From Pseudonocardia hierapolitana (lineage in GTDB: Bacteria; Actinomycetota; Actinomycetes; Mycobacteriales; Pseudonocardiaceae), in NCBI RefSeq assembly GCF_007994075.1, contig NZ_VIWU01000001.1:3224001-3288000 (forward strand): DNA of 64,000 nucleotides, given 5' to 3'. The translations under genes were made by a program, and so were the position numbers. The notes below the pieces were generated by a model. The model had not been told where the DNA came from, ran no database searches, and was given only the letters and a program-made list of their open reading frames with translations. Shown here piece after piece: positions 4,703-32,926 of this stretch (its first letter is position 1; every line of letters starts with the position of its first letter).

Positions 4703-7700
4703 TCAGCCGCCGCCCGCGCCCGACGGCCTCCGGAACAGCCGGAACTCCTCGTGGAGCTCGACCGGCAGCAGCCGCTCCCACACCTGCTCGACGAGGTCCC
4801 TCGCCTCCTCGGAGTCGTGCCCGAGCAGCGACCTCCAGATGTCCAGGCGCGCGGCGAGCGCGAGCAGCTCCGCGTCGCTGATCGCCAGCCGCCGCCGGGC
4901 CGCCACACGCTTCATCCGGGTCGCGATCTGCGGGATCACCCCCTCGTACACGTCGTCGTTCCAGAAGGCCCGGATCTCTCGCAACCGCCAGCGGTCCGCG
5001 CGCGTGAACCCGGGCAGCTCACGGGCCAGCTTCCGCAACTCGCGCAGGGCCTCCTTCGCCTCGCGGTGCACCACCCGTTTCGGCACGTCCCGGTGCGGGA
5101 TCCGCGCGACCGCCGCCGCCCGGAACTGCTCCACGTAGGCTCGTGCCACCTCCCGCCACGCCGGCAGCTCCGCGAAGACCACGTCGACGTCGACGCCGAG
5201 GACGCGCTCGTGGTCGGCGATCAACCGGTCCAGCGCCGCCGGGTTCCCCCGGGCCAGCCGGTCGAGATCGCGCAGCGTGCGGGTGGTCAGCCAGGATGCG
5301 GGATCCGCGTCCGGGTCGGCAGCGCGCTCGGCGAGGACGGCGACGGCGTGCCGCACGTCCTTCGGGAAACCGGCGAACCCGGCCAGCACGGACTCCACCA
5401 CCTCGTGCACCGCACCCTCGGCGTCGCTCACGAACAGGTGCAGCATCCCGCCCTCCCACCGGAACCCGGCGTCGACGGCGAGCGGGCGCAGCGTGGGGTC
5501 CTCGACCCGCACGTCCAGCCCCCGCCACACGAGCGACGGGATCGGCAGCCGGCGCAACCGCCGGTCGTCCAGCAACAGCCGACGCGTGACCAGGACGAAC
5601 GTCTTGAGCACCCGCCGCGGGTCGTCGTGGTGGTCCGGCCCGCTGCGGCGGGTCCGCCGCTGCACCCACTCCCCGAACCGGCCCGTCCGGTCGAACAACA
5701 AGGACTGCGCGTCCAGCAGCACCCGGCTGCCCGTCCTCTCACCCGGCAGCCGAACCTCGACGGACAGGGCCGCGGCCAGCTCGTCCCGGCGCTCGAACGT
5801 CATCTCATCGCCACGCAGCGCGGGCGCCAGGTCCTCCTCCGGCATGTGCGATCCCGGCGGCTTCCGCGCACCCGGTGGCCCGCTGGTCTCGTGAGCCGCC
5901 GGAGCGGCCGGCTCCAGGACGTCCCCGGTGTCCGTTCCCCGCGCGGCGTGAGCGTTCGGGCGCCGGAGAGCATCCACCACGACCTTGATCCCGATCAGGA
6001 CCAGTGGGAACGCGGCGAGTCCGAGCACGGTCGCGGCAGCGATCTCCCAGCCACCGATGAGGCCCGACATCGCGACGCCGCCCACCAACGACAGCGGGTT
6101 GAGCCGCAACCCGCTCCACCGCTCATCGCGGCTGCCGACGCGGCGGACCGCGTGCTTCCGACCGACCTCTCGCAGGGTGTCGTCTTCTCGGACCGCCCCG
6201 CGCAGGACCGCCTTCGGAACGCCGAGAATGCCCATCAGCCGGCGGTAGGTGAGCTCGCCCTCACCGACGACCGTGCTGATCTGGCCACCGAGATCCGCGA
6301 TGTCCAAGACGTCGATCCGCACCGGCGTGCCATCGGGCAGGGACATCAGCTGCGGCCGCAGCTGGCGACTACCGATGCCCCGGTTGGTCAACCGATCCAA
6401 CATCCGGATGTTCGCCGCCGCATCCTCGCCGCCCAACTGGAGCTCGTGAACGTGGTCCGGGTCCATCAGCTCCGTCACCCGGCGAACCAGGCGCGCGGCG
6501 TGCTCCGGGTTCCACGAACCGATCACCGTCGTGATCCTCGTGACGAGGTCTGCGGTGTATCGCCTGGTGACGCTCGGGTCGCGGGCAACCGGGTTCTTCG
6601 CCTTGTGGAGCCGGCCCGCGTCGCCGAGTCGCAGCAGCTCCTCCGCCTTGCGCCGGAACTCGACCCGCGGCATCCCCTTCTCGCGCCAGATCCACACCGT
6701 GGCCGCTGCCGGCGGCGGGGAGCGCGCACCGCCGGCGCCGGTCATCGGCCGCGGCGCCCGGGGCGCTACCCAGCCGAACCACTCGGCAGCGATCGGCGCG
6801 GCATCAGCGTCGTGCCGGGGACCGATGTGCTCGGGGTACTCGCCCAGGTGGAACTCCACCTCGTGGATCAGCAACCGGTCCCACCACGCCTGAACCCCCT
6901 CGGGGTCCAGCGCGAAGCGCCCCGCGACCTGCTCGGCCACCGCCCGGGTGATCACCACCGCCCTGCGCTCGGCCCACCCGAACGCGATCACGCCCGGCAC
7001 CGGGAATTTCCCGTCCCGGACCAGCACCTCCACCCCCGGCGGAGCACGCGGCAGCGCCAGGGTCAGCTCCTCCAGCGGCGTCATCGACCGCCGCGAGCCA
7101 CGCAACGCCCGGACCAGCCGATCGCGTTGGGGGTCGGTCAGCGGGTGCTCGGCCACCGCGCCACCGGTGGCCACGATCCCGCCCGCATGTTCGGGATCCA
7201 GGCGCAGCGCCGCATCGTTCCGGGAACGCGGCCGCCGCCGCGCAGCGACGGCGGCCGCGGCTGCGACCGCCAGCCCACCGGCGACCACTACTCCGAGACC
7301 GCCCGAGGCGGGACCGGGCACCCAGGACCGGGCCACCGCCGGCGCGGCCAGCGGCCCCACCAACACCGCGACGACCAGCACCGCCAGCACCGCGACCCGC
7401 ACCAGCCACCTGCGCAGGCCGGACGACCGATGCTCGGGAACGGTCGATGCGCGCGCCGGCGGACCGCGCGGAGTCACCGCATGCCGCAGGACGGAAGGGA
7501 TCCGCGGTGGCGCGGTGCCGACGACCGGACGCCCCGCACCGGCCCCGTCGCCGCCCGGCAGCGGGACTTCCGGCCCGCCTGGCTCCACCTGCACCGACCC
7601 GGCACCAGCGGGCAGTACCTCGACCCGCCCCACCTCGCGCGCCAGCGGGGCGTACTCGGGGTGATCCGCCAACCAGGTCTGGAACGCCGACCAATCCCAC

Positions 7701-10700
7701 CCGTCGCGAGCCACGATGTCCGATACCGACAGCCGTCGGGTGTACTCGACCGTAGCGTCGACCAACCCGAGCGCGGCCTGTACCTCGAGGGGGTCCAGCG
7801 AGCTCGCGAAGATCCGCAGCTCGAAGGTGTGCTCGTTCTGGACGTTGATCGCGCGGTACCGGGAGTCACCTCGCCCGCCGGCGGCGTAGTGCCTGACCGC
7901 ACGCCGGTCCGACTCGGTGAACGCCGCCCAACGGTCCGACTTCCGCCGTGCCAGCGCCGTCACCCGGTCCCGGTTGCGGTGCAGCAGCTTCATCCACCGG
8001 TACACATGCGCGGGAGACTCGAAGGCGGCGCGACTGACGTGCACGTGCAACCCCACACCGGCCCCGTCGCCGCCCAACCGTTCCAGCTCGGCCAGCATCG
8101 CCCACGGAAAGTTGCGCATCGCCCAGGCGTAGGACATGGGGTGGGTGACGATCTCGAAACCATCGTCGATGGAACCGTCGCGCTTGAGGTAGCCCAGAAC
8201 CCCCAGGTACCGGGCCGCGAGCTCGGTTGCCGCCGCCCGGGCGCGCTCCGGAACGTTGATCTCCAGCTCCAGGCCGAGGTACCGCGGGCCCGTCCCGAGG
8301 AACACCGGGCGCGGCTTGTGGCGGTAAGCGCGCACCACGGCGTCGACCAGCATCGCCCCCCGGTTGAGCACCAGGTAGTTCTCACCGGTCCCGGTGGCCG
8401 TGAAGACGGCGTCGATGCCGTTCAGCGCGGCCCACACGGCGAGATCGGCCAGCAGACCCGCGATCGCCTCCCATTGCTCAGCGGAATCACTGCCCGTGCT
8501 GCGTGCGGCCTGTGCCGCCCGCTCGAGCGCCGCGATGTCCGCCGCGCGCCGCCCGACCGCCGCCGACAGCTCCAGCACCGTCGCGTCGGAACGCAGATGG
8601 GCCACGGCGTCGCGGCGCAGTGGCCGGAACGGGTTCGGCAGCAGAACGGCCCCGCGGTCCGATCCGGACGTCGCCGCGTCCGCGCCGGAGCGACTGCTGG
8701 CCAGCCCGACGAAGGGCCGTTCGCCCGTCCCGAACAGCTCGGCCCACTCCGCGGCCTGCTCCCCGTCGATCCCGTCGTGCATCGGCAGGTGCCCCGCCGC
8801 CCGCAGGTCCCCCGAGTCGGCCGGTTCCGCGACGGTCGACCAATCCGACATGCCCTGTGCATCCAGCACCGCCCGCAGCGCGTCGTCCGGCGAGAGGGTG
8901 GCGAGTTCGAGCAGGAACGCCCGGTTCCATTCGCCGATCCGGGTGCGGCGCTGTGCCGCGCCGCCGCGACCGTCCGGCGGGCCACGCGCCAGGTTCGGGA
9001 GCTCCTCGCCGGGCAACGGACGGGCGCCCCGATCGGCGGCAGGCAAGCGCGTGACGGCCTCGTGGTCGCCGAGCGCGAACTGGCCGGCTGCGGGTGCGGA
9101 TGGCGACCCGTCACCACGAGCGGGCAGCGGTCCGACGTCCGGCCGCTCGTGGCGATGGGTGGTGTGGCCCGACGCGCGGGAGCCACCCGGCTCCGGGCCC
9201 GCACGCGGGCGCTCGCCCCTCGCGCTGCCGGAACTGCCCGGCGCGGGCGCGGTGGAACCGGCGGCCCGCACGGTGGCCAGGAACGCCGCGATGAGCTCGG
9301 ATCCGATGAAGTGGGCAGGTCCTGACGGGTTCCCGTAGCTCTGGACGCCGGCCACCGCGCCGTCGCCGTCGAGTGCCGGCCCACCGGACGCGCCGGTGAG
9401 GCCGGGAGCGGCCACGGTGAGGTGCACACCGCCCGCTCGCACCGGGCCGTGGCCGACCAGCCACTGGCCTGCCGGGTGGCCCGCGTAGGCGAGCTGGGCA
9501 CCCACCGGCACCGGCGTGCTGCGCAGCCGGGCCACCGGGCGGCTCAGGCCGGGCACGGTGAGCAGCGCCAGGTCGACCAGACCGTCCGCGAGCGGCGCAC
9601 CGGCCTCGGCGGCGCTGGCCACCGACCGCGCGGCCAGGTCCGCGTACGCCCCGAACTCGGCGGCGCGCCGCGTCTCGACCGCGGTGACCGGGAGCCCGTC
9701 GACGCGCAGCGTGCCGGCGTCGACGTCGGCCGCGTGCGCGACGGTCAGCACCGTGTCCGGGGCGACGACCACGCCCGTCGCGATCGCGTCGAACGCGCCG
9801 ACCTGCCCGGTGATGCCCACCACCGAGGCCAGTGCCTCGGTGACCGCCTCCGACCGGCTGGCGGCCTGGACGTCGTCGAGGTGGTGGTTGACCAGCTCGC
9901 CGCGCCAGGTCACCAGCGTCAACCGGGAACCGGCCGCTGCGCCGCGGTACACGCGCAGTTCGCCGATCTCCACGATCGGTGCGCCCGCCGTCCGCCATGC
10001 GGCGGCGACCAGCTCGAACGTGGGGACATCGCGCCACTGCGCCGGCTCGTGGGCCCGGTGCAGGTGGCGCAGGTCGTCGAGGCGGTGGACGGCGTTCGCC
10101 AGCGGGTCGAGACCGAGCCTGCGGTCTCCTCCGTAGTGGCGGCCGACGATGTACAGGTCGCGGTCGGCGTCCCGGACGGGCCGGGTCAGCCGCAGGGCCG
10201 GGTGGCCGTCGCGGCTCGCCCACCGGAATCCCGCGCCGACGGCGTGACCGAGGGCCACCCGCTCCGGGACCCGCTCGACGAGCTGCGGGCGGGCGGCGAC
10301 GAGTCGACGCAGCCGACGGCTGCTCGGCAGCGGCATGGCCTGTACCGCAGGCTCCGGCAGCTCGGGATCGACGATGCGGACCAGCTCGCGCTCCGCGATC
10401 AGCGCGCGAGCCGAGCTGGGCAGTCGATCCGCAGCGGCCAACGTGGCGGGGTCGACGAAGACGGAACGGACGCCGGTGTGGTCCTCGGTGACGAAGTACA
10501 GCAACGCGAGCTCGCGGTCGCCCGGCCGGGTCAACCGGTCGAACCGCCGCCGAAGCCCCGGCAGCACGTAGACCCGCACGCCGTGCGCGGCCCATCGGCC
10601 GCGCGGGTCGGCACGCCGGTACGCCTCCCCGCCTGCGTCCAGCGGTGCGCCGGGCTGCGCGTGGTGCAGCTCCCGCACCGCCCGCTCGGCCGTGGCCCGC

Positions 10701-25700: not shown

Positions 25701-28700
25701 TCGGCCGACGCGCTCGTGGCGACGTACCCGCCCCCCAGCCCACCGCTGCCGAACCCGACCGCGTCGGCGGTGGCACCGGGGGCGCTCGCGTGACTCTCGG
25801 CGCGGTAGGAGAAGGAGCAGGTGACGCCGGTGCCGGAGCAGGACGCGGACGCCTGCGCCACACCGTTCGCAGGGTCGACCGATGCGCTGGTCAGAGCCTG
25901 GCCCGACCCGATGGTGCCGTGACCAGCCGCGACACCCTCGGCGTGGACACCGGGGCCGCTCGCCCTGCTCTCGGCGCGGAACGAGAAGGAGCAGGCGACG
26001 CCACTCCCGGAGCAGGACGCGGACGCCTGCGCCACACCGTCCGCAGGGTCGACCAACGCGCTCGTCAGCGCCTCGCCGGTCCCGGTGGTGCCGTGACCAC
26101 CCGCGACACCCTCGGCGTGGACACCGGGGCCGCTCGCCCTGCTCTCGGCGCGGAACGAGAAGGAGCAGCTGCCCCCATCGGTGGCCGCGCAGCCGGCGCC
26201 GGCGAGGGCGTACTCGGCGCTCGCCGCGACCCGGCTCGAGCTCGCGCACTCCCCTCCCGCCGCGGCCGTGCAGTCGGAACGGGACACGGCCGTGTTCGTC
26301 CCGTGCGGCGAGGCGGCCGCGGCGCGGCCCTCGGTGTGCGTCGTGCAGCCGGTGCCGGCGCAGCTGGCGGTGACCTCGGCGAAGTCCTTCGCGGCCGAGC
26401 CGCCGGTGCCCGCGGTGCACGTGCCGGAGGCGGCGCAGGTCGCGGTGGCGGAGGCACGGACCCCGTCCGCGCCCACCGCGCTGGAGTCGGAGGACACGCG
26501 GGTGGCGCAGCCGGTCTCGCTGCCGTTGTCGCAGGCGACCGAGACCCACGCGCTGGTGCTCGCGAACCGCTCGTCCGGTGTGGCGTCCGCGGGCGACGCG
26601 GAGACGGTGGTCCCGATGCTGATCTGCGCCTGGCACGCCGTGGTGCCGTCGCAGCGGGTGTCGCCGGTCGCCGTGCTGACGGCCCGTTGCCCCTCCGGTC
26701 CGGCGACGGCCCTGGAGGTGCCGGTCACGGACCCGGTGCAGCCGGCCTCGGGGCAGACGATCTGCGAGGTGGCCTGTCCACTCCCGGAGATCCCGGGGAC
26801 GGCCTTCGCGTCCTCGCCGTCGCCGGTGACCTGGCCGGAGTCGCGTCCGGTCGTGGTGGTGGCCTCGCTGGCGGCCACGCAACCGGATGCCGCGGCGGTG
26901 CAGGTCGCGGTCGTGGTCGACTCGCCCGGCACCCCCGACGTGGCCCCGGTTGTGGCCGCGGTGCAGCCCGGTCCGGTGCACTCCGCCATCGCCGACGACT
27001 GCGACAGGGCTGCGGGCGCGTCCGCCACCGGCTTCGCGGCCAGCTCGGCGGCCTCGGTCGCCGCCTTGCGCGCCTCGGCCGCGACCTTCGCGGCGTCGGC
27101 GGCGGTCTTCTGTTGTGCTGCGGTCGCACCCTTCCGGGCGGCGACCCTGGCAGCCTCCGCGGCGAGCTGCTCGGCCTCGACGGCCTGCTGCTCAGCCTGC
27201 TTCGCTGCGTCGTTCTGCTGCTCCGCGACGATGTCGGCCACGACCTGGCCGGATCCCGCACTGGAGTTGGTCTGCGCCTGGCAGCCCGACCGGCCGCTGG
27301 TGCAGGTGGCGCTGCTGGTGGAGACGCCCTCCGGTGGGCCGCGGGCCCCGTTGCCCTGGTTCGGGGTGGTGGGGCCGTCGCTGCCCGCTGCCGAGCTGCG
27401 GACCGTGCCGGTGCACGCGGTGCTTCCCGCGCAGTCCAGCGTGGCGGCGACCATCGTCCAGCTCGAGGCGCCCGGAACCGTCGGAGCACCCGAGTTCGCG
27501 CTCGATCCCGGCGCCGTCGGCGCGGGCGGCACCGCCGGCTGCTCCTGCGACTGCTCGGCAGGCGCCTGCTCACCGGTGGTCTCCGACGTGACCGTGGCGT
27601 TCGCCGTGGACCGGGCCTGCACCAGCGGCGCGATCACGTTCGCATCCGGGCCCGAGGAGGCACCCGAGTTGGTGACCGCCTGGCACACCCCACCCGACAC
27701 GCCCTCACACGATCCCTCGGACCGCGAGCCGCGCGGGTCGGCCGACACACTCGGGTCGGTCGCGGACGCCGCGCTGGTGACCTTGCCCGTGCAGGCCGCC
27801 TGGCCCTCACAGACCAGCACCGCACCCGCCGCCGAGGCCGCCGACGGACCCGCCGGCATCCGCGCGGTGTTGACCTGCTGCGCCTGCCCCTCGGCCCGGG
27901 GGCCGGACAGCGCCAGCGCCGCACCCGGACCCGTGGACGCCGTCGACACCGACCGCACCTCGCAGCCACCCGTGCCACCGGTGCAGGACGCGATGCCCTC
28001 CGAGGTCCGCGGCTTCCCGCCCGCCACCGCGCCGTCCCACGCGCTGGTGGTGGTGCGCACCGAACCGGAGCAGGCCGTTCCCGCGTCACAGGCCAGGCTC
28101 GCGCTCGACGACGAGGTCGAGGACGGCCCCGACAGCGACTGGCCCGGCAGCGGCTTCCCGGTGTTCGGGTCGATCGCCACGTAGTCGGCGGCACTCGACG
28201 CGGCCGAGCTCGTCTCCCCCGAGCAGCCACCACCGGTCACCGTGCACTCGCTCGTGGCCGACGTACCCCGCGCGTGCGGCGACACCCCCGTGTCCCGGGC
28301 GCTCGTCGAACCGGTCGCGGTGCCACCGCACTCGGTCGCCGCACCGGAGCACTCCACCGACGCGGTCGCGTGCGACACGCTCACCGGACCCGACACCGCC
28401 GCCACCCCCGACGCCGGATCGGCATCGGCCGGATCACGATCGGCCACCGTCGTGTCCGCCGCACTGCCGCAGCTGCCGCCCGCGCCGTGCACGGTGCAGG
28501 ACGAGGTGCCGGTGCTGTCCCGCACGCCTTTCACATCACCGGAGGCGCCACCCGACGTCGTGCTCGACCCCGACGCCACACACGTGGCGGCCGCACACCC
28601 GACCTCGCTGCCGGCGGTGCTGGACGCGGCCTGCTCCCGGGTGGCCTGCGACTCGCCGATCGCCGCGGCGGTCGGCTGCTCGTCCCAGGACGGCTCGGCC

Positions 28701-31700
28701 GCCCGGTCCGACACCTGCGAGCTCGACTCGACGCCGCACCCGCCGGCCTTCGCCTCGCACGTCGAGGAGGCCTTCGTGGTGCGCACCGGAGCCGCCGCGT
28801 CCCTGGTGGCCGGCGTTCCGGTCGCCGTGCCGGTGGTGGCGCTCGACGCCTTCCCGCTGCAGGTCGCGCCGTTGCAGTCCACGTTCGCCCCGGCCGAGCT
28901 CGACGCGGTCGCGTCGCCGTCGGTCAGCGCCGCCGGCCGGACCGTCCCACCGGCGAGGCGGCCGGTCCAGGAGTCCTGCTCGTCGACCTGGCTGTCCACA
29001 TCGGTGCTGCTGTGGGCCTGGCAACCACTGCCCGCCGACTCGCACGAGGCCTGCCCGGTGCTCTTCCGCTCCGCACCGGCCCGCACCCCGCTCCCGGTGC
29101 CCGCGGTGCTCACCGTGCCCGAGCCGGAGCAACCGTCGCCGCAGTCGACCTCGACCACCGCATCGCTGCTGCCCTCGGCACCGCGCGAGTCATCCTCGTC
29201 GTCCGCGCGGGACTCGCTGCGCGTCGCGCACCCGCCAGCGGAGACCGTGCACGCGGCCTTGCCGTTCGTCGCCGACCCCGCCGTGCGGTCCGCGGTCTTC
29301 GCGTCGGTGCCCGCCGTGCGACCGGCGTCCGTGCTGCTGCTCGCCGAGCCGGTGCAGCTACGGCCGCAGTCGACCTCGGCCTCGGCGACGACCTCGTCCG
29401 AGCCGTCCAGGTCCACCGAGCTCGACGTGCCGCACCCGGATGCGCCCCCGCACCGCGCCGACCCGCTCCCGGCCCCATGGCCCTCGGTCGTGGTGCTCGT
29501 CAGCCGCGCACCGTCCTCGGCGGGCTCGCGATCGGAGCGCGACCCGGAGCTGCCGCTCTCGCACGACCCACCGCCGGTGTCGCACTCCGCCGTCGCACCG
29601 TCCGGTGTCGCGACGCTCCGCTGCTCGCACCCGCTCGAACCGCCGCCGCATCGCGCCGACGCACGTGACTCCCCGTCGGCACCGCGGCTGGACGCGCTAC
29701 TCCCGCAACCGGAATCGTCACAGGACGCCTCGGCCCTGGAACCACCCGATTCCGAGGACGCACCACACCCCGAGGACACCCCGGACAGGCAGATCTCCCG
29801 ATCGGAGTCGCGCTCGCCGTCGGCGGACTCGCTCACCGACCCGCACTCCACGAACGCCCCGTCCGAACCACACCCGGCGGCCGCGCCCTCGCCGTCCAGG
29901 TCGTCCTCGGACACCGCGTCCGGGTCCCTGTCGGTGGCGTCCATCAGCTCGTCGGTGGCCTCGTAGACCTCGTCACGCTGCTTCTCGTACGCCTTGACGT
30001 TCTTCTTGTGCGCGGCCGCGGTCACCGCGCCGCCTGCGACCTTCTTCTCCTCCGCCGCCAGCTGCTTCTCGCGCTCGTCCAGCTCCTCGTGCCCGTCGAC
30101 GACCTCGTCGACCAGCTCGGCGCGATCCTCCGACAGCTCCGCCCGGTCCGCCCCGTACCGCTGCTCCAGCTCCGAGTGCTCGGCGGCCTGCTTGTCGTAC
30201 TCGGCCTTGGTGGCCTTGCCCGACGCGACGTCCTTCTTCGTCTGCTGGAGCTTCTTCTCGCTCTTGTCGACCTCGATCCGGCCCTCGATCACCCGCTCGG
30301 TCTGCTCGGCCGAGTCGTCGTGGTCCCGCTCGTCCTCGTCCTCGTCGCGGTCCTCGTCGTCCCCGTCACGCGGCGGGGCACGCGAGCGCGCGTCGGAGAA
30401 CTCCCGTGACGACAGCAGCGACATCTCGCCCGAGCAGCCGTCGCCGCCGCACAGCTGGTCGCGGTCCTCTGCGTCCGTGCCGGCCGCGAACAGCTCGGCG
30501 GTCGCCTCCCCGTCCTCGGCATCGGACTCGTCGTCGCCGCGACCGAGCGCCTTCTCCACCCGCTCGGCGTCGTCCTCCGAGACACCCGCCCGATCGACGG
30601 CGTACCGCACGGCGTCGCGCACCAGGCCTCGCGCCTCGCGGCCGACATCGTCGGCGTCGGCAGCGTCACGCGCCGGCTTCGACGCCCGCTCGACGAGCTT
30701 CCGCGCATCCTTCTTGCCGTCGTCGTCGCCCGCCGACTCGATCCGCTCCTCGCCGGCACGCCGCAGGTCCCGCGCATCGTCGTCGTCCTCGTCCCGCGAG
30801 CCGACCTTCTCGGCGAGATCCTTCGCGAGCTCCGCCCACGCGCCGGCCTTCCCGCGCTTCTCGGACTTCTCGTCATCGTCCCGGGAACCACGAGCCTCAC
30901 CGTCGGCCCGGTCTCCCGAGCGCACCTTCTCGACGAACTCCCGCACGAGGCGCCGCGTGTTCTCGGCCCGGTCGCCGCGGCGTTCGTCGGCACGACCTTC
31001 GTCGGCACGTCCCCGGTCGGCACGTTCCCGGTCGGCACGGCCCGAGCCGGCGACGCGGTCGATCAGCTTCGTGAACTCCGCTCCGGAGTCGCTGTCACGG
31101 TCCTCGGAGTCGGCTTCGTCGACCCGCTCGGACAGCTCGTCGGTGACGCGCCGGAGATCGGTGCGGGCGTTCCCGTCCTCGTCGTCGCGTCCCGACGCGG
31201 CATCGGCCTCGCGCGGCGACCGGCGCGTGCGCTCGCCCCCGTGTCCATCCGAACCGGCCTCGTCGGCCCGCTCGGTCGGTTCTTCCACGGACCGGCGCGC
31301 ATCCCGGTCGTCATCGGCGCGCTCGCGGTCCGCGGCGCTCGTGTCCTCGTCGTGGGACCGCCCGTCGGCGTCGTCGTCATCGCCTTCGCGGGCCCGCTCG
31401 CTCCGCCTCTGCTCGTCGGCGTCCTCGCCCAGCCGTTCGCGGACGATCTCCCGTACGCGGTCCCGGATGCTCTCGCCGTCGCCGCCGGATTCAGCGGCGT
31501 CACGCTCGTGGCCGCGATCGTCGGCGGACTCGTCCGCGTTCCGGCTCCCGGATCGCTCGGCGCTCCGCCGATCGTCCGCACCGTCGGCGTCCTGGCCGTT
31601 CTCCTCGCGCTCGTCGTTCGACTCGCGCCCGGCGTCACGCTTCTCGCCGTCACGCTTCTCGGGATCGCGATCGTCCCCGCGGTCTTGCTCGCGGCCCGAT

Positions 31701-32299
31701 GCACGGCGCTCGTCGCGATCCTTCTCGCGCTCGCCCTCTTCGCGGTCCCGCTTGTCGGACTTCTTGCTCTCGCCCGACTCGTCGGACTCCTCGCGCTCCT
31801 TCTTGGTTTTCTTCTCGCCGGACTTCTCCTCGTCCGACTTCTTCTCCGACTTCTCGGACTTCCTCTCGGACTTCTCGGACTTCTTCTCGTCCTTGTCCGA
31901 CTTCTTCTCGCCCTTGTCGGACTTCTTGTCGTCGTCCCCGCCCGACTCGCGGTCGTCGGAACCGTCGTCCCCGGAAGAATCGGAGTCACCGCCGTCGGAG
32001 CCGGATTCACCATCTCCACTCTCTCCACCGCCTGCGGGCCTGATGCTCCCTCCCTTCACCAGGCCCTGCTTGACGGCCGCAACGTGCATCACCGGAACGG
32101 CGACCGCCGCGGCGGCCGGGGCCGCCGTCAGGAACGCCGCTCCGATCCACAGCACCACGACGGCGCCGGCGAGCGCGCACGCCCACCGCACCGCCTGCAA
32201 CATCCGGTCCATCGGCGAGAACCGCAACCGCACGGCGACGACGTCAGGACGCAGGGCGAGGCCGACGGCCCCACCCGTACGCACTGACACCTGACCCAT
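4703..32299 (-). CDS. giant multidomain protein (~9,198 aa) with signal anchor, Cys-pair repeats, SecA-like motor, PP2C, trypsin-like protease, amidoligase and HNH domains
   Basis: One uninterrupted frame of 27.6 kb, close to a megadalton of protein. ATG 32299 is preferred because GGAG lies 8 bp upstream; a GTG upstream (32380) and ATGs at 32212 and 32203 are alternatives with weaker ribosome sites. Domain order by residue from this start: signal anchor 39-67; Lys/Glu/Asp/Ser/Arg-rich region about 87-803 with coiled-coil-like end; cysteine-pair repeats about 809-2343; unrecognised region to about 3490; hydrophobic block 3490-3660; helix-turn-helix-like units; Pro/Gly-rich linker; SecA-like motor about 4140-4747; helical region; polytopic membrane block about 5817-6177; PP2C about 6933-7169; trypsin-like protease about 7493-7679; amidoligase-like about 8000-8193; two membrane helices; HNH motif near 8615; membrane helices near 8740-8775; unrecognised C-terminus. 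It resembles polymorphic-toxin megaproteins in layout, but this domain set on one chain is not one I can name. No immunity gene is recognisable next to it. Confidence 0.85.
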   Translation of the reverse strand: MGQVSVRTGGAVGLALRPDVVAVRLRFSPMDRMLQAVRWACALAGAVVVLWIGAAFLTAAPAAAAVAVPVMHVAAVKQGLVKGGSIRPAGGGESGDGESGSDGGDSDSSGDDGSDDRESGGDDDKKSDKGEKKSDKDEKKSEKSERKSEKSEKKSDEEKSGEKKTKKEREESDESGESKKSDKRDREEGEREKDRDERRASGREQDRGDDRDPEKRDGEKRDAGRESNDEREENGQDADGADDRRSAERSGSRNADESADDRGHERDAAESGGDGESIRDRVREIVRERLGEDADEQRRSERAREGDDDDADGRSHDEDTSAADRERADDDRDARRSVEEPTERADEAGSDGHGGERTRRSPREADAASGRDDEDGNARTDLRRVTDELSERVDEADSEDRDSDSGAEFTKLIDRVAGSGRADRERADRGRADEGRADERRGDRAENTRRLVREFVEKVRSGDRADGEARGSRDDDEKSEKRGKAGAWAELAKDLAEKVGSRDEDDDDARDLRRAGEERIESAGDDDGKKDARKLVERASKPARDAADADDVGREARGLVRDAVRYAVDRAGVSEDDAERVEKALGRGDDESDAEDGEATAELFAAGTDAEDRDQLCGGDGCSGEMSLLSSREFSDARSRAPPRDGDDEDRDEDEDERDHDDSAEQTERVIEGRIEVDKSEKKLQQTKKDVASGKATKAEYDKQAAEHSELEQRYGADRAELSEDRAELVDEVVDGHEELDEREKQLAAEEKKVAGGAVTAAAHKKNVKAYEKQRDEVYEATDELMDATDRDPDAVSEDDLDGEGAAAGCGSDGAFVECGSVSESADGERDSDREICLSGVSSGCGASSESGGSRAEASCDDSGCGSSASSRGADGESRASARCGGGSSGCEQRSVATPDGATAECDTGGGSCESGSSGSRSDREPAEDGARLTSTTTEGHGAGSGSARCGGASGCGTSSSVDLDGSDEVVAEAEVDCGRSCTGSASSSTDAGRTAGTDAKTADRTAGSATNGKAACTVSAGGCATRSESRADDEDDSRGAEGSSDAVVEVDCGDGCSGSGTVSTAGTGSGVRAGAERKSTGQASCESAGSGCQAHSSTDVDSQVDEQDSWTGRLAGGTVRPAALTDGDATASSSAGANVDCNGATCSGKASSATTGTATGTPATRDAAAPVRTTKASSTCEAKAGGCGVESSSQVSDRAAEPSWDEQPTAAAIGESQATREQAASSTAGSEVGCAAATCVASGSSTTSGGASGDVKGVRDSTGTSSCTVHGAGGSCGSAADTTVADRDPADADPASGVAAVSGPVSVSHATASVECSGAATECGGTATGSTSARDTGVSPHARGTSATSECTVTGGGCSGETSSAASSAADYVAIDPNTGKPLPGQSLSGPSSTSSSSASLACDAGTACSGSVRTTTSAWDGAVAGGKPRTSEGIASCTGGTGGCEVRSVSTASTGPGAALALSGPRAEGQAQQVNTARMPAGPSAASAAGAVLVCEGQAACTGKVTSAASATDPSVSADPRGSRSEGSCEGVSGGVCQAVTNSGASSGPDANVIAPLVQARSTANATVTSETTGEQAPAEQSQEQPAVPPAPTAPGSSANSGAPTVPGASSWTMVAATLDCAGSTACTGTVRSSAAGSDGPTTPNQGNGARGPPEGVSTSSATCTSGRSGCQAQTNSSAGSGQVVADIVAEQQNDAAKQAEQQAVEAEQLAAEAARVAARKGATAAQQKTAADAAKVAAEARKAATEAAELAAKPVADAPAALSQSSAMAECTGPGCTAATTGATSGVPGESTTTATCTAAASGCVAASEATTTTGRDSGQVTGDGEDAKAVPGISGSGQATSQIVCPEAGCTGSVTGTSRAVAGPEGQRAVSTATGDTRCDGTTACQAQISIGTTVSASPADATPDERFASTSAWVSVACDNGSETGCATRVSSDSSAVGADGVRASATATCAASGTCTAGTGGSAAKDFAEVTASCAGTGCTTHTEGRAAAASPHGTNTAVSRSDCTAAAGGECASSSRVAASAEYALAGAGCAATDGGSCSFSFRAESRASGPGVHAEGVAGGHGTTGTGEALTSALVDPADGVAQASASCSGSGVACSFSFRAESRASGPGVHAEGVAAGHGTIGSGQALTSASVDPANGVAQASASCSGTGVTCSFSYRAESHASAPGATADAVGFGSGGLGGGYVATSASAESKDGFAQASASCQGSSGTDCSHHWSVRVSDYASHPSGSWAYARASDSGGGAMGASGGWVFADASIDQYGNPSTSVACSNDAHCSKYYAAHIEFDISWTQQQTWEDPGGIWNARRFGDCSGSTGNGCGLYRSGNDVGCTGDCSNFRQSMSTPVFTQLVPSGKEIWQAQQDAATLTADEVAAMGPEETGSFSGVDENGNRIMVVKDRGEEARTCDAACIDALPVGPDGTRTFGDAGGAQATWTPDAADSRTTYGASVTVSPTDSRRHEVSGEYSAQISQDAEGDTQVWMGGRGRVTDGRTGASADVNPTNSQGVTTLRIVDRPRAPFDGEVFGGVVYRGPEIDLPPVVTDHNPDAPGFDELTSNAAWVKFGATEAGQATFRIAGTGRSTFVSAEGVVVNAYGDGANFEDGPGNNVSLITPTYGPDDRVLAPGIYDVQGQTGDITLPDGRTITNHNDRFFSHGSISEDTGQFVQGSLESFGVKAITELEPGRGGSFHCVGFCTETVPGNEGVSLEHCQDICTVQNPGGVDPTQRVCSEMCEMHDEFGGDWTSKYPAGYFQVRMIGDGNITSFTPEGDPAYCGGEGCRFTQGYRDQNGNYGFMTCHLGGSGGACLGETMGSDGQVTKLECRGSDRCNPVVLLYPNKTDPEKYGLNEGWSCGSGVGVDGCVSNREDLRTEGRGEVTPGWMPLIDPGYRREYRGTEADRMLAEILAPLGYEVGDPLPPLDAAAYANLTEEQRELYDSALRPLTDTEKDFASARAVNADADNRYDTNTYLGMLPELEQATGRIDEALRNGTFSPSEYADELALIEKANIRAERMALNRGIANALTTMQYQRPFIDEQARSAAEAPNLPADLEVRSLIEGSTELQEALGVNRKGQPLDQHGNVIVSNPEEKARAIADGVPYIELTPTQKAQSDASRLAGYALIGHQEDLRRRTLSLEMQVDWLLEHGATQADVGRVEELEAGINADSKTISGVQVDLGTFVKNANLPGVAPDVARLREFDIGIARNNDESVMAGNLERLNAFQTDLNDLVTRLSSSDDPQEKALGETFGKLASVTGLSYDTVAHDSSFRDLDGQLVWRENPNDEARHLLSLPSSGRADMVYVFNSAINSPGYYDYADDKVREFYHHRDRDEIANWASEFTAAEQEGQLSTIRAVDPETMESLLGRLNEGDQEKIQKALDAIRSIGGENAGAVDPGEAGEVGIIQLYIQDPNKPDDGYPMETVLFRVRGEDGTTRLVDAEGGIYDDWGDYQQYNSLADDQNVLMVADLDAEIGESGRLHEVDGHEDPAWKTAGIWVGRGLMVVGGVALIVSGVGAPLGAAALAATASTIATVSFVSGAVVMGATAGGELIARGNHNQDTSWSDPTARSLWITAGASLLVGGGSLVAKIGALKAAGAVQAGGTAAAVTGGVVMGGQMVHSTYTAIRDWETLSPAQRREFWIDTSIGALGLLGGGVKIAGNRVASWRQGRLQGSVPGINQQIMDMTALRGGRRPSVGELSRELGISRSKVRFALQEAPMGPLLSRVGQLTARAGGRPTVSEVVRETGVSRAEARAALRAVEAARKPEMVMAEKAMARRGEVTVEEFQRGLGRFTSKRTKAEIVQLIKDGDLRGFTLRDGKISYRPTREAQPDSATRPLVASQPAAQNGPLTDPNQARGGAADPTMSRGDEALPEVLAEQPAEAQGRAAGEQGYVTYRPTPVAEPGTDPVANSGRAARAMGGKSEVTAEEFMAGLGDDLTLLQRAVLLEQVKQGNVDGFSYGERVVSGEQAGGVAPDVAPAAQQPYASSIGDGRAGPEAPAQPEPHAGGDGRGGARDPDAPQQPARSADEAQTGAREAGAERPGGPAPGAPRSDPVIPGGPGHEALPVAPNGQSAGGKRPSGPQGGAEQDAGGVGSGGNRPAGTVGSPDPGNPGAPGTMDGNHLGGVPPPAAKRSALRDALEQWRQSREQYKADWQKVRGYLRGFKKQSYDDLTARSEEVAQQVENGERSFKDGVVECVAIACEVARRVDPAKKPRKGQIMGAVALARDGRVVEMLTGEGKTLTGAVAIVARSLLEGRARGQVQWLSPNESYAWDAYKQVKRIAKPLGLTVELDTAQRSGEGRAAVERAHIKMGALSEEAFGVLRDRSGGTGDRRAPAWRLLDEVDQLLLDDVAPFILSEQIKGAKPALADMTWAKRIADADVLAPATRDNPNGHYHPRTFRLTEAGREWLDGRLDELGGGALGPEARAALRQRVENALKARNGLKRDVDYLVESGEVVLLAEDNRPLYGRRLSDGLHEAVELKELGRDGVRPPSRTIDSITVRELLAESGWAGMTGTVGGKAGRGQFRATYDKLVVHIEPFRRSKRVDHDPVNHRTAAEARHAALVDALEAHAKGFPVLIRVGSVAEALIVEGLLWEHGVVPRMITAKAMHRARESEVIAHAGRRGAVTVATDMAGRARDIKLGGSVEALVAEFMQRFHPDLASGTDGYAAARARATRWARTHVAEELALLDVEGGGLHVIGVGTPRNARIEGQLRGRSGRNGQHGVTRIHRSWEDRLVAEHAPVEFVAERGPAEVTGRIDGAAADAVFDLVRHDAEVAANARLAAAPHGSHRGDHVASVLSGAQLAELPALPANPAGVDLHHLDALRGAEPVPGLTAEQYLQAREDALRFEVEHYPTSQEHALAADRLAALIPARALRERPMTPADVERFRQHVQQATDVFARETELADLLGMSWSELAEAGVVEAAASQDADLGGARGAEAAASRDWGHRELADALAAAAGLPPMSDEPITAELLDELRMLVGLDRFAILRGEAPGTPHAGPHRPGVLVAHAGIGPVRAPAVNPVSRTAALMALDELVRAGHGDPQDRTRGAEPRREGVSWSARVRDLVHERREAFAAGMRRRAAVRELRSVLAGLDDPVRTGRSDLAAARAGLAARDADLAAWQRAAVRWLFGGPDAGSGPGVDGVREAVVARLFGVDRAEVRLYATDRTVPVDAAGLGEPTGSFEERLERLIAELARFEGLLRAAADGVDEANRVLVERQAERIRTLEAAVRAAAAGGVPVARIAGLTGLTPEQVRAIVGGSPGRGSGPSATGGGPVTGGGSHPTGTGPERPSTPPAGSGGSAGMRTAGPRAGEPEARSRGPPWWKRLFTARTAGAVVLFTGGLVATLAAIRYGVAEPGAFAAAGVWWWPGRREAVRKLRDDVSDARARVTDAENTEATAQDATRRHEQELQVRLGWVVPLAERLRHLGRPDDQIVDDLAGALALHPQRVRARLADPDLTAAAPLPAPLAAPVLSAAELLAVTRAVVTVRSADLGAALAHWDGAAQTLVRTRIEARTDVLRAARDARDAGVRPGTVRRATGLSRADIAALPVSPPTLRDAAHEIGARIASGWWAVVEGVRGAGRWVGERRRAFTAAVGARALVAVGGLGRGWRRFTDRVRAGRVLRAQIRGVARLRAVVGVTARLLRHERRAAARGITTEQLGWIGWLAALNATQPGMRLTGQQLAERIARTLGLPERAVRRMLVRAARRGIAEPLQNGIGLDLAIARVQVAFFEAHPTLADALAAHRAAERALAAGRAEAVERAVGAGVATARAARRMVRAERGRGAAGYRTRLRTRLGLDVPVSERLRTRRVRVAGYVVGAGVGLAAGGLVGLVAAGAVTVPIGSIVAAAGLLAAARAMWMPKQARGPPWKAFSAGLRAHAVRFGTWALAGAGAVLGAGPLADRLEQLWPVFANQPGLLGVKALLVPLVTAGLVFRYVLRRQYANQASGMQTRPRLAAWGSAVAAYVLTAGFGLVRAFQLVTGPWWLVPIAMAIAVGITNAILQKKDTGRTRVIKALVSGSLSAAVTFVLGLLGNGLAPGAVSNLINAVVIATFVYASPTVIAEYVNVWVGRLMAPYAKRKAQQEQKNAAAGTGDSERQRRWYIAWLDYKNFSPVDTRLLWRKALDPVLAGLSAVVINLAWVERAWVLANDNSLAVVLARFAVMAASVWLVGKLWRDPDEFRNGFYGFRSSRNLRKPSRAPRWTLLTGGRMHHRVQAYQRDLNRVLGRFDLTGRDLDRGLAHDLAEAMWARMTSSLHEPLNEWEALPDVAEIDDALARERGEAQRRRDHHVETVELVVPILAADPAALKRVADRLRRDGRGADAGVLDFQRMLSQELWARFTGAQPDPAATPAPSSRVWAKRLADALEKRNELRSTYLEGPRRELLELIKQHYLDNNQRDNANLRRARAALRALEFQLRGVSKPRSEPLEAVAQLAEQRARSVRDGADTEKLAIAAREPAASRERLAEMRQLEAGMRLVGSAALLAVEAEHSRTQRSWNRERRREAMARATSTPPNRAPATLLERLLLLTGRRGSATPDQLQARYGGTGWAEALAALAETGALEGDATKGYRATAELITLWREAGPRLRHAMRSDAAALPGGAELAPLTVDRLGPAGVTAAERDAVAALHVVLRDGRLAFSHWQDGWLDDFGGAWRRVAGLGYVLWHGAGRRDWPLPADHPAAPIRFAAAVRDAVVARWRHRVVPGQQRRLLRGHLRGTDAADRLYFRALRAGEFLADQRPGRSLRPEATDLLHAARAIEVEVYARLAEARERAVDATAAVGSYPHQVDRTLRPADEARPHAPDSDPLPPPAEYWLREIAEELAAATARLDHLHSGPEREAALAEARLLLQRHDIDRDYAWATQLYRTMGGWKVMEKARLAAKNLRSRHEDVVHRPASAPAQVRGGPVVPHRDWIAHPHGDDETTGPGMAAATRRGLGNRTNQDAAALVTLPNGDRVALVVDGVFSYPDSQLAAIEFATAFRAELTRADRAGRGAEQALRDAHQAGLDALTMRYTPESGHGAVAYLAAYRGADGKVTISHVGTARAYFVPLTPGQAGGQLTVDHSRGGDITDGGIMTRWAAGDYRPEPTVTRPPGTGPGLLVLATDGLWRYLPTAGDLAAALTETVPGGRTSITDPAEAATRLAEAARAAGGRDDLTVAVMTAMNPPRIPSTRPRSGAIAVTVPDAKPVALTDPERATAERAVRELHHAQPGAPLDAGGEAYRRADPRGRWAAHGVRVYVLPGLRRRFDRLTRPGDRELALLYFVTEDHTGVRSVFVDPATLAAADRLPSSARALIAERELVRIVDPELPEPAVQAMPLPSSRRLRRLVAARPQLVERVPERVALGHAVGAGFRWASRDGHPALRLTRPVRDADRDLYIVGRHYGGDRRLGLDPLANAVHRLDDLRHLHRAHEPAQWRDVPTFELVAAAWRTAGAPIVEIGELRVYRGAAAGSRLTLVTWRGELVNHHLDDVQAASRSEAVTEALASVVGITGQVGAFDAIATGVVVAPDTVLTVAHAADVDAGTLRVDGLPVTAVETRRAAEFGAYADLAARSVASAAEAGAPLADGLVDLALLTVPGLSRPVARLRSTPVPVGAQLAYAGHPAGQWLVGHGPVRAGGVHLTVAAPGLTGASGGPALDGDGAVAGVQSYGNPSGPAHFIGSELIAAFLATVRAAGSTAPAPGSSGSARGERPRAGPEPGGSRASGHTTHRHERPDVGPLPARGDGSPSAPAAGQFALGDHEAVTRLPAADRGARPLPGEELPNLARGPPDGRGGAAQRRTRIGEWNRAFLLELATLSPDDALRAVLDAQGMSDWSTVAEPADSGDLRAAGHLPMHDGIDGEQAAEWAELFGTGERPFVGLASSRSGADAATSGSDRGAVLLPNPFRPLRRDAVAHLRSDATVLELSAAVGRRAADIAALERAAQAARSTGSDSAEQWEAIAGLLADLAVWAALNGIDAVFTATGTGENYLVLNRGAMLVDAVVRAYRHKPRPVFLGTGPRYLGLELEINVPERARAAATELAARYLGVLGYLKRDGSIDDGFEIVTHPMSYAWAMRNFPWAMLAELERLGGDGAGVGLHVHVSRAAFESPAHVYRWMKLLHRNRDRVTALARRKSDRWAAFTESDRRAVRHYAAGGRGDSRYRAINVQNEHTFELRIFASSLDPLEVQAALGLVDATVEYTRRLSVSDIVARDGWDWSAFQTWLADHPEYAPLAREVGRVEVLPAGAGSVQVEPGGPEVPLPGGDGAGAGRPVVGTAPPRIPSVLRHAVTPRGPPARASTVPEHRSSGLRRWLVRVAVLAVLVVAVLVGPLAAPAVARSWVPGPASGGLGVVVAGGLAVAAAAAVAARRRPRSRNDAALRLDPEHAGGIVATGGAVAEHPLTDPQRDRLVRALRGSRRSMTPLEELTLALPRAPPGVEVLVRDGKFPVPGVIAFGWAERRAVVITRAVAEQVAGRFALDPEGVQAWWDRLLIHEVEFHLGEYPEHIGPRHDADAAPIAAEWFGWVAPRAPRPMTGAGGARSPPPAAATVWIWREKGMPRVEFRRKAEELLRLGDAGRLHKAKNPVARDPSVTRRYTADLVTRITTVIGSWNPEHAARLVRRVTELMDPDHVHELQLGGEDAAANIRMLDRLTNRGIGSRQLRPQLMSLPDGTPVRIDVLDIADLGGQISTVVGEGELTYRRLMGILGVPKAVLRGAVREDDTLREVGRKHAVRRVGSRDERWSGLRLNPLSLVGGVAMSGLIGGWEIAAATVLGLAAFPLVLIGIKVVVDALRRPNAHAARGTDTGDVLEPAAPAAHETSGPPGARKPPGSHMPEEDLAPALRGDEMTFERRDELAAALSVEVRLPGERTGSRVLLDAQSLLFDRTGRFGEWVQRRTRRSGPDHHDDPRRVLKTFVLVTRRLLLDDRRLRRLPIPSLVWRGLDVRVEDPTLRPLAVDAGFRWEGGMLHLFVSDAEGAVHEVVESVLAGFAGFPKDVRHAVAVLAERAADPDADPASWLTTRTLRDLDRLARGNPAALDRLIADHERVLGVDVDVVFAELPAWREVARAYVEQFRAAAVARIPHRDVPKRVVHREAKEALRELRKLARELPGFTRADRWRLREIRAFWNDDVYEGVIPQIATRMKRVAARRRLAISDAELLALAARLDIWRSLLGHDSEEARDLVEQVWERLLPVELHEEFRLFRRPSGAGGG
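6300..6640 (-). other. HNH-type nuclease motif within the giant protein
   Basis: The segment MDPDHVHELQLGGEDAAANI followed by RMLDRLTNRGIGSRQ has the DH...LQLGG.D...N...LD...NR form seen in HNH/endonuclease-VII-type toxin nucleases. It lies near residue 8615. It is not the terminal domain: about 580 residues follow, including a further membrane-helix pair and an unrecognised basic helical region. Confidence 0.7.
7720..8300 (-). other. amidoligase-like (carboxylate-amine ligase fold) domain within the giant protein
   Basis: The pattern YLGLELEINV, KRDGSI, GFEIVTHPMS, GLHVHVSRAAF, YRAINVQNEHTFELRIF matches the amidoligase family (ATP-dependent COOH-NH2 ligases found in phages and conflict systems). 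The acidic and His residues expected for ATP and metal binding are present. Just upstream (about 8330-8430) the segment GIDAVF...ENYLVLNRGA resembles the end of ADP-ribosyltransferase exoenzyme domains, but that part is only a weak resemblance. Confidence 0.75.
9260..9820 (-). other. trypsin-like serine protease domain within the giant protein
   Basis: A chymotrypsin-fold domain with a complete candidate triad: His7522 in VLTVAHAADV, Asp7576 in VDLALLTVPG and Ser7638 in GASGGPALDGDGAVAGVQS. The spacing fits small bacterial S1-type proteases. No separate export signal precedes it. Self-cleavage of the giant chain is an obvious hypothesis but is not shown by the sequence. Confidence 0.82.
10790..11500 (-). 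other. PP2C-type Ser/Thr phosphatase domain within the giant protein
   Basis: The PPM/PP2C motifs appear in order: RRGLGNRTNQDAAALV (metal Asp6949), VALVVDGVFSYPDS (DG motif), ISHVGTARAYFV (HVGDSRAY counterpart with Asp replaced by Thr), GLLVLATDGLWRYL and AAGGRDDLTVAVM (metal Asp). Metal-binding aspartates are retained, so phosphatase activity is plausible. The domain spans about 237 residues, normal for bacterial PP2C. Confidence 0.85.
13770..14850 (-). other. polytopic membrane block of the giant protein
   Basis: Residues about 5817-6177 hold eight to ten hydrophobic segments separated by short charged loops (for example GYVVGAGVGLAAGGLVGLV, KALLVPLVTAGLVFRYVL, WWLVPIAMAIAVGITNAIL, VVIATFVYASPTVIAEYV). 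An additional single helix precedes it near 16230-16295 (AVVLFTGGLVATLAAI). I do not recognise a transporter family. The block could anchor the chain or form a channel. Confidence 0.65.
18060..19880 (-). other. SecA-like DEAD motor domain within the giant protein
   Basis: All hallmark SecA ATPase motifs occur in order and spacing: Walker A GEGKT at residues 4236-4240 (within VVEMLTGEGKT); DEVD at 4341-4344 (SecA VDEVDSILID counterpart); the preprotein-cross-linking-domain block RDVDYLVESGEVVLL with YGRRLSDGLHEAVELKE; GMTGT at 4512-4516; ATDMAGRARDIKLGG around Met4633 (SecA TNMAGRGTDIKLG); and QLRGRSGRNGQHG at 4713-4725 (SecA QLRGRSGRQGDPG). The arginine fingers are present. The long helical scaffold/wing region and the zinc-binding tail of SecA appear shortened or absent. 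This is a complete motor, not a fragment, so ATP-driven polypeptide handling is a reasonable inference. Confidence 0.88.
21310..21825 (-). other. first hydrophobic block of the giant protein
   Basis: Residues about 3490-3660 hold several Gly/Ala/Val-rich hydrophobic stretches (WVGRGLMVVGGVALIVSG, then LGAAALAATASTIATVSFV, ITAGASLLVGGGSLV, and IGALGLLGGGVKIAG). Such Gly/Ala membrane blocks precede effector regions in many polymorphic toxins (family knowledge). Here the block precedes the helix-turn-helix-like units and the SecA-like motor. Confidence 0.6.
25270..29875 (-). repeat. cysteine-pair repeat region (about 37 CX(3-8)C units) of the giant protein
   Basis: About 1,535 residues in which nearly every cysteine is one of a close pair (C-x3 to C-x8, for example CGDGC, CNGATC, CDAGTAC, CTSGRSGC) flanked by Ser/Thr/Gly/Ala-rich beta-like sequence. 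Pairs recur about every 40 residues, and two types alternate: V-x-C...C-S/T-G and S-C...G-C-x3-S. Counting by eye gives about 37 pairs. One Ala/Glu/Gln coiled-coil insert lies near 27010-27240. The pattern suggests a long extracytoplasmic rod held by local disulfides. I do not recognise the family. Confidence 0.75.
25646..26167 (-). repeat. three tandem 174-bp (58-residue) repeats inside the giant gene
   Basis: Three successive 58-residue units starting at a Cys-Ser-Phe-Ser-Phe/Tyr-Arg-Ala-Glu-Ser block (residues 2045-2218). The first two copies differ at only about 14 of 174 bases by eye and share an identical run of nearly 70 bases, so they arose by recent duplication or are kept alike by conversion. 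The third is diverged, and a fourth, more degenerate unit (CSHHWSVRVSDYA...) follows downstream in the gene. Confidence 0.9.
29890..32040 (-). other. highly charged low-complexity region of the giant protein
   Basis: About 717 residues composed almost only of Lys, Glu, Asp, Arg, Ser, Gly and Ala. It opens with short degenerate KSEKSEKKSD-type repeats (near 31790-31930) and continues as mixed D/E/R/S sequence with intermittent heptad-like segments such as LVREFVEKVRSG and the long helix LVDEVVDGHEELDEREKQLA. It is probably disordered with coiled-coil patches. Only one cysteine pair (near 30445) occurs in it. Confidence 0.7.
32099..32185 (-). other. N-terminal signal peptide or signal anchor of the giant protein
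   Basis: Residues 39-67 of the giant protein form a long hydrophobic Ala/Val/Leu stretch after a positive RMLQAVRW segment, ending in an Ala-rich AAPAAAA run that could serve as a signal peptidase site. This places the following acidic and cysteine-rich regions outside the membrane, if the segment is used for export. Confidence 0.65.
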
Positions 32300-32926
32300 G
32301 ACGGACGCTCCAGAGGTTCCCCGCTGCACGCGGGAGAGGAAGGCACAACCAGAAGGACACGCGGCCGCGAACCGGCACACGGACGAACGAGGTCAAGGGC
32401 CTCGCTGCGAGTCGCGCCTGGGGCAAGCGACCCGCCGGGCAGCCCGGACCGTTCATCACGCCGCTCCCGGGGCTTCCCGTCGCGACACGTCAGCGACGAT
32501 CTGCCTCCGAGTGGGGCAGCGACGAGATTGCCGGGGGCAGTCGTACGGCAGGCAACCGGAACGTTGCCCATCGAGCGACGCCTGGGTGAACTTCCGGTGA
32601 TCCGGTCGACGCTCGCCACACGCCGCCGCCCGGGGGCTGGAGCCGGGAAGTGGGCGTTCGCCCGGCGGCCCTGCGGACCGCAGTGCGGCGGGTACGCCGA
32701 GGCGCAGTTGTTCCACGACCATCGAGTTGCGGCACGCACGCTGCGGGTCATCGGAGGCCGGACCCACTCCGGTGGAAACCCGTTCACGGCAGGAGCGGTG
32801 CCGAACGTGGATCGATCCCACTTCCTGCGTGGATCGCTGTTCCGTTCGCGGTCCCGGAGAACGCCGGAGAAAATGGGGGCCGCCGACCTCAGCGTCGACC
32901 GTTGGTGATCTGGCGCGCGAGCTGTG
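32300..32926 (+). other. 627-bp intergenic region upstream of the giant gene
   Basis: No supported gene; all frames give Arg/Pro-rich sequence with poor third-position GC bias. It should hold the giant gene promoter. A TTGACC hexamer on the minus strand (32396-32391) is a possible -35, but no convincing -10 follows. GGAG at 8 bp before the giant start is the ribosome site. No repeat, RNA gene or strong hairpin was recognised. Confidence 0.6.

Follow-up and report, generated by a model that had tools for sequence, protein, structure and literature searches.

A giant single-frame protein family of Pseudonocardia combining a cysteine-paired stalk with a SecA-like ATPase core and a putative multi-effector payload

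Very large bacterial proteins of several kinds have been described. Zhang et al. 2012 presented SACTE_5178, a giant multi-toxin of Streptomyces with 13,652 aa (PMC3482391), and the Streptomyces giants of that paper carry a payload of lethal-factor-like peptidases, caspases, ARTs and MCF1-SHE domains, whereas the one mention of SecA found there concerns Amoebophilus effectors. Stalked polymorphic toxins, among them the CDI and RHS types, combine a long N-terminal stalk and a conserved N-terminal part with a variable C-terminal part (PMC3482391). Among the Omnitrophota, the giant of V. archaeovorus has 39,678 aa and 42 predicted transmembrane helices, and the domains named in these giants, discoidin, laminin G and dockerin, are of adhesion types; the main text of that paper does not use the term SecA (PMC10066038). 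Predicted proteins of up to 85,800 aa are cited in PMC12057145, which also cites a 2023 preprint by West-Roberts.

We analyzed a window of 64,000 nucleotides from Pseudonocardia hierapolitana (NZ_VIWU01000001.1, positions 3,224,001 to 3,288,000 of the forward strand), in which a giant frame encodes a chain with the architecture of a stalked polymorphic toxin, i.e., a signal segment, a long stalk, a conserved N-terminal part and variable C-terminal enzymes. CDI and RHS toxins usually bear one terminal toxin with a neighboring immunity gene; unlike them, the giants carry many domains per chain and have no constant partner gene. With the Streptomyces giants, whose payload was compared by description only, they share an actinobacterial origin, some members of more than 10,000 aa and several enzyme domains per chain (PMC3482391), and with the Omnitrophota giant open reading frames, whose adhesion-type domains were likewise compared by description only, a comparable length, many membrane segments and poor annotation (PMC10066038). 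By analogy, these two appear to be the nearest published kinds. Literature searches, with preprints and most subscription journals outside their scope, found no paper joining a giant protein to SecA in the Omnitrophota or in Pseudonocardia, and none on polymorphic-toxin giants of Pseudonocardia. There is a real chance that the family is a new kind.

The giant frame and its relatives

Consistent with a preliminary description of one stop-free frame of about 9,200 residues, the minus strand from 4703 to 32380 contains no stops, giving 9,225 codons counted from the first GTG (32380). An in-frame ATG at 32299, residue 28 from the GTG, matches the start region of the relative P0002 and on this sequence comparison is the likely start, which places the giant frame at 4703..32299 (minus strand) with 9,198 aa. 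Residues are numbered below from the GTG at 32380, and some computed positions run 4 higher. Because frame length is weak evidence in high-GC DNA, as illustrated by the opposite strand, which has a 4,872-aa frame whose codon phase is mirrored, codon phase was tested; the third codon position was the richest in G+C in every one of the 31 bins, each of 300 codons, with a minimum of 0.84. P0002, a protein of 6,711 aa from Pseudonocardia sp. CA-107938, is co-linear with the giant up to about residue 7170, with an identity of 55-79% per block, and its chain stops after the PP2C domain, indicating that the domains beyond PP2C are not constant. The coding bins, the co-linearity of P0002 and the relatives in other genomes led us to reject a chance frame or an assembly error, and the giant is confirmed as a genuine, single coding frame. 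Homologues in which the domains form separate genes, which the preliminary description had named as the mark of a misassembled frame, were not encountered, and the relatives are single giant frames as well.

A search with a profile built from the stalk end and the tip (A3) gave matches in 23 of 62 Pseudonocardia genomes, and these matches comprise at least 60 distinct frames of at least 5,000 aa in 19 Pseudonocardia genomes, the longest having 40,943 aa. The frames P0002, P0003, P0005 and P0006 are assigned to Pseudonocardia by their sources. The P. hierapolitana genome itself (G000 in our labels), a single contig of 8.86 Mb, encodes two more giants with SecA-like matches, of 21,891 and 11,962 aa. 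The former (G000:C1:4045526-4111198) has SecA, GNAT, cation efflux, MFS, NUDIX, DUF3990 and trypsin-like matches; in the latter (G000:C1:6433591-6469476), the coding phase shifts to another frame near position 6469000 and continues there, giving a frame-shifted tail. Two shorter frames of 3,607 and 3,060 aa (G000:C1:3820088 and 3413497) contain part of the stalk-end block.

Beyond the genus, the A3 profile matched 2 of 394 genomes of the class, namely the window's own genome and one partial match of 300 aa, in a search that scored at most two candidates per genome and missed the 21,891-aa frame. DUF4781, discussed below, was matched in 1 of 296 genomes of the phylum, again the same genome. Among the matches listed for a SecA-module profile in 396 genomes of the phylum, with at most three candidates scored per genome, there was no giant except the frame in the window, and the other giants of its genome were not among them. 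The family is thus likely, but not proven, to be absent outside Pseudonocardia, as distant or fragmentary relatives may be missed. A plasmid-borne family was considered and rejected, as tblastn of the tip block against a plasmid collection found nothing. Since members occur in Pseudonocardia species including P. xinjiangensis and P. zijingensis, as named by the sources, bench work is within reach.

Stalk, tip and SecA-like core

The preliminary description placed a signal anchor, an acidic region and disulfide-type repeats on one chain, and sequence, composition and cysteine pairing all agree with this. A signal or signal-anchor segment ending in AAPAAAA (residues 57-92; 32105..32212, minus strand) was recognized from the sequence and a hydrophobicity scan. 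By eye, a closely similar segment occurs in 11 of the 24 other frames, 3 of the 11 being incomplete in view, and most of the remaining frames have a different hydrophobic segment near their start. It is followed by a charged low-complexity linker (30311..32053, minus strand) with approximately 40-54% D/E/K/R in composition bins, possibly the wall-spanning region, and by the stalk (residues 644-2892; 23705..30451, minus strand), whose 92 cysteines form 46 close pairs and leave none single.

The stalk end and the tip make up the A3 block (21293..25645, minus strand), which is wholly or partly common to many giant relatives; its tip part is whole or nearly whole in 15 of 25 frames, partial in most others and absent from 4 (G012a, G022b, P0003 and a fragment that lacks its start). 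Within the tip, a DUF4781 match (approximately residues 3461-3640; 21461..22000, minus strand; E = 1e-7) was found that the preliminary description did not contain. The end of this match is overlapped by a pair of hydrophobic segments behind the tip (21692..21823, minus strand), a candidate membrane-inserting hairpin that has a like pattern in part of the A3 alignment. DUF4781 was matched in the three giants of the P. hierapolitana genome and in P0002, P0005 and P0006, but not at E 0.001 in the 40,943-aa relative and the further giants whose slices were compared with Pfam, so that it does not characterize every member of the family. The domain has also been reported in a large HopBF1-containing protein of type III secretion clusters in Burkholderia cenocepacia (PMC12580581). 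AlphaFold gave poor models both for the tip (pLDDT 55) and for the SecA module (pLDDT 50), and a PDB fold search with the predicted tip gave no match at E 0.001.

The SecA-like ATPase named in the preliminary description is strongly supported. The core (residues 4175-4766; 18083..19858, minus strand) comprises NBD1, the preprotein cross-linking region and NBD2, and three Pfam models exceeded their cut-offs (SecA_DEAD, 4e-25; P-loop_SecA, 3e-32; SecA_PP_bind, 1e-11); the NCBIfam SecA match reached 6.8e-80, yet lies below the cut-off of that full-length model. Walker and DEAD-like ATPase motifs are kept, and the Walker A residues G, K and T do not vary across 10 aligned rows, 2 of them from ordinary SecA. 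In a PDB search, the module aligned to residues 65-622 of M. tuberculosis SecA1, covering both ATPase domains and the cross-linking region and ending at what we take to be the start of the SecA scaffold. The scaffold/wing half with the two-helix finger had no family match among Pfam hits up to E 0.1, the AlphaFold model of the module being too poor to judge a diverged scaffold. Compared to the SecA translocase, therefore, the module shares NBD1, the cross-linking region, NBD2 and the ATPase motifs; it differs from SecA and SecA2 in having no scaffold/wing match and in being embedded in a chain of 9,198 aa, whereas stand-alone SecA has about 800-1,000 aa. As to the proposal that the giant carries its own translocation motor, the module keeps the ATPase motifs and the cross-linking region but has no scaffold/wing match, and the scarcity of unpaired cysteines argues against a motor working in the cytoplasm of the producer.

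The P. hierapolitana genome has a separate SecA frame of its own (1,004 aa). In a tree of 41 rows, 19 giant modules and 22 ordinary SecA sequences were parted by one branch with support of 93/99, present in 90% of bootstrap trees, although several branches are long and SecA2 sequences were included only by chance, if at all. This separation suggests that the module is not a recent copy of the genome's own SecA. A SecA-like stretch of more than 350 aa was found in 19 of 24 giant frames, several of which are cut at stretch or contig ends, and the 11,962-aa frame shows the second ATPase half alone in Pfam.

Payload domains and gene neighborhood

While much of the N-terminal part is kept, the payload of the relatives varies as a mosaic. 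In the giant of the window, the membrane blocks mentioned in the preliminary description were borne out by a multi-pass block of 7 hydrophobic segments (approximately residues 5862-6204; 13769..14797, minus strand), lying inside a region common to 8 of the 24 other frames compared, one of them a near-copy. Only dense blocks were used, since hydrophobicity counts are weak, a nonribosomal peptide synthetase (NRPS) control having 15 segments in 7,999 aa compared to 17 in 9,229 for the giant.

The enzyme domains assigned in the preliminary description fared unequally. The trypsin-like serine protease (residues 7534-7679; 9344..9781, minus strand) matched at 6e-8, above the cut-off, with His, Asp and Ser motifs present; the triad is whole in this giant and partly lost in some of 8 aligned rows. 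The PP2C-type phosphatase domain (residues 6965-7193; 10802..11488, minus strand) has the aspartate motifs, an NCBIfam match at 1.6e-7 (31 bits against a cut-off of 230) and a match to the PDB phosphatase 2jfr at 1.1e-4, but the Pfam score of 20.2 bits is weak, just under the cut-off of 20.3; three of the four motifs sought were readable and mostly kept in 12 rows, the fourth being outside the block taken. For the amidoligase-like domain (approximately residues 8035-8210; 7751..8293, minus strand), the Pfam match was weak here, at 17.9 bits against a cut-off of 22, but reached 2.2e-7 in the 40,943-aa relative, and the E, H and R motifs are largely preserved in all 4 rows compared, which come from 3 frames. 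The HNH-like block (DPDHVHELQLGG...N; 6113..6715, minus strand) is recognizable by its motif and is kept in one relative, G011a, but no HNH model appeared among Pfam or NCBIfam matches up to E 0.1.

Two further payload features recur among the relatives. One, new compared to the preliminary description, is an HExxxH module (residues 8413-8541; 6758..7144, minus strand) that 12 of the 24 other frames also contain, in as many as three copies per chain, and for which no Pfam name was found; its pattern is HExx(F/H)H, often with further H and HD residues after it. The other is a C-terminal block (5105..5533, minus strand) of which the 21,891-aa frame encoded in the same genome has two copies, with weak matches in two further frames. 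Among the Pfam matches listed for other giants, in tallies that are partly counts per slice and with one set covering 25 of 42 families, were SecA, trypsin, PP2C, rhomboid, FHA, GNAT, NUDIX, DUF3990, APH, amidoligase, LysM, MFS, TauE, cation efflux and many winged-helix families. HTH-like motif repeats in the payload were dropped as a candidate feature, as a regular expression gave 0 or 1 per chain.

The giant in the window is flanked downstream by an adenosine deaminase gene and upstream by genes for a metallo-beta-lactamase-fold protein and a TetR regulator, with no cognate immunity gene immediately downstream. In a set of 86 neighbor entries from 12 regions with giants, a few of which were counted twice, some giants (G004a, G011a and several of those in G012) are directly followed by recurring small genes that have either a trypsin-like Pfam match or none. 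These are candidate partners or immunity genes but are not constant, and no constant immunity or secretion partner gene was found among the neighborhoods compared. The small genes after G004a and G011a (L044:8830-9312 and L045:1355-1966) start at the last coding base of the respective giant, are 57% identical to each other and have no Pfam match.

Cysteine partition and competing readings

The distribution of cysteine along the chain, a feature absent from the preliminary description, bears on where the giant acts. After residue 150, all 94 cysteines have a partner no more than 12 residues away; when the 92 stalk cysteines were placed at random, at most 68 were paired in 2,000 trials. The last 6,333 residues contain only two cysteines, at 4223 and 4228, which lie inside the SecA core and form a pair also seen in several relatives. 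As controls, the neighboring genes (79 cysteines in 9,231 aa) predict 54 cysteines in the payload, and an NRPS frame of the same genome, chosen for size as that genome has no large PKS frame, has 33 in 7,999 aa, of which 6 are paired, and predicts 26 (P = 1.6e-9). Pooling 24 giant frames, which are related and thus not independent trials, gave 2,150 paired cysteines of 2,170, with 20 single, and a payload of 235,171 residues with 143 cysteines, 126 of them paired; P0004 was dropped from this pool as a near-copy of G010a, several of the frames are cut or partial, and one has a shifted tail. Since ordinary SecA is itself cysteine-poor (0-5 in 12 frames, and 0 in the genome's own SecA), the SecA stretch alone proves nothing. 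An in silico study predicted even cysteine numbers in approximately 64% of exported mycobacterial proteins (PMC12421883). The best explanation of this pattern is that the entire chain, together with its motor, travels through an oxidizing space, which favors export of the entire protein over a motor that stays in the cytoplasm of the producer. The Pfam VKOR model had no match in the P. hierapolitana genome despite the cysteine-paired giants encoded there; four gene matches to Thioredoxin_4 (DsbA-type) were present.

With a probability of about one half, we propose that the giant is an exported, surface-shown stalked multi-effector whose payload would be delivered to a neighboring cell. The chain would be exported via Sec, driven by its N-terminal segment, with a stalk stiffened by disulfides; the hydrophobic segments behind the tip would insert into the target membrane, the SecA-like core would perform ATP-driven work within the target cell, which offers ATP, and might there pull or unfold the part of the chain that follows it, and the payload enzymes would act on target proteins or nucleic acids. 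This reading is supported by the single coding frame, the family with its shared stalk and tip and mosaic payload, the cysteine pattern and the kept motifs, and further by LysM matches in payload slices of other giants and by DUF4781 in the B. cenocepacia protein. The surface-anchored multi-effector of the preliminary description fits these data, its location and delivery, like the target and the job of the motor, being what we infer from them. Against this reading stand the want of a constant partner gene and of a VKOR match, the 20 single cysteines, the G012a giant with 20 cysteines in total, the poor structure predictions and a tip without a fold match, as well as the membrane blocks and signaling-type matches discussed below. 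If the chain is wholly exported, the SecA-kind ATPase core inside it would represent a novel role for such a motor and pose a testable question as to how chains of this kind cross membranes.

A narrower form of the multi-effector proposal appears rather doubtful to us, namely that of an exported, titin-sized family with its own threading motor in cis. Here the tip of the stalk would enter the target cell first, and the SecA-like core, spending ATP of the target, would then pull the string of enzyme and membrane domains across the target membrane. That the core pulls its own chain is a speculative idea.

The main rival, on account of the membrane blocks and the signaling-type domains, is a trans-envelope surface machine of the producer, with the stalk outside and the SecA-like ATPase, PP2C, FHA-type and other domains on the cytoplasmic side, serving sensing or regulated export of its own C-terminal parts. 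SecA normally acts in the cytoplasm, and the multi-pass block sits between SecA and PP2C, where it could anchor the protein in the membrane of the producer itself. Moreover, the FHA, PP2C, rhomboid, transporter and winged-helix matches of the relatives' payloads are typical of membrane or cytoplasmic signaling, and FHA, PP2C and winged-helix domains look more like intracellular signaling parts than toxins. A cytoplasmic payload is, however, difficult to reconcile with a region nearly devoid of cysteine, both in this giant and in the pooled frames, with most of the remaining cysteines paired, whereas the NRPS frame of similar size has 33; we consider this arrangement possible but unlikely.

It seems improbable that the giant is an adhesin, surface coat or predation protein of the kind proposed for the Omnitrophota giants, with enzymes that modify the producer's own surface or outside polymers. 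Its size and hydrophobic segments, of which a crude scan counted 147 in the 40,943-aa relative, recall the V. archaeovorus giant, and some relatives have LysM matches; yet both the SecA-like core and the amidoligase-like enzyme would depend on ATP, of which there is little in the extracellular space, and among the Pfam matches listed, one set of which covers 25 of 42 families, there were no polysaccharide-degrading or classic adhesin families. That no functional single protein exists, the frame being a fusion, an assembly artifact or decaying gene remnants, is highly improbable, for although at least one relative, the 11,962-aa frame, has a frame-shifted tail, and the ends of the G018, G022b and P0003 frames resemble it by eye, the coding signature fills every bin of the giant frame, independent genomes hold co-linear giant frames and the catalytic motifs are largely kept.

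Members more than four times longer than the giant of the window were likewise not part of the preliminary description. The 40,943-aa frame (G012:C3:68604-191435), which would rank with the largest known bacterial proteins provided that it is made as a single chain, has 86 cysteines in its stalk part, and it matches SecA, rhomboid, trypsin, FHA, TauE and amidoligase families. It is adjoined by two further giants (17,592 and 26,771 aa), and in one stretch of G012, frames of more than 2,000 aa fill 287 of 320 kb.
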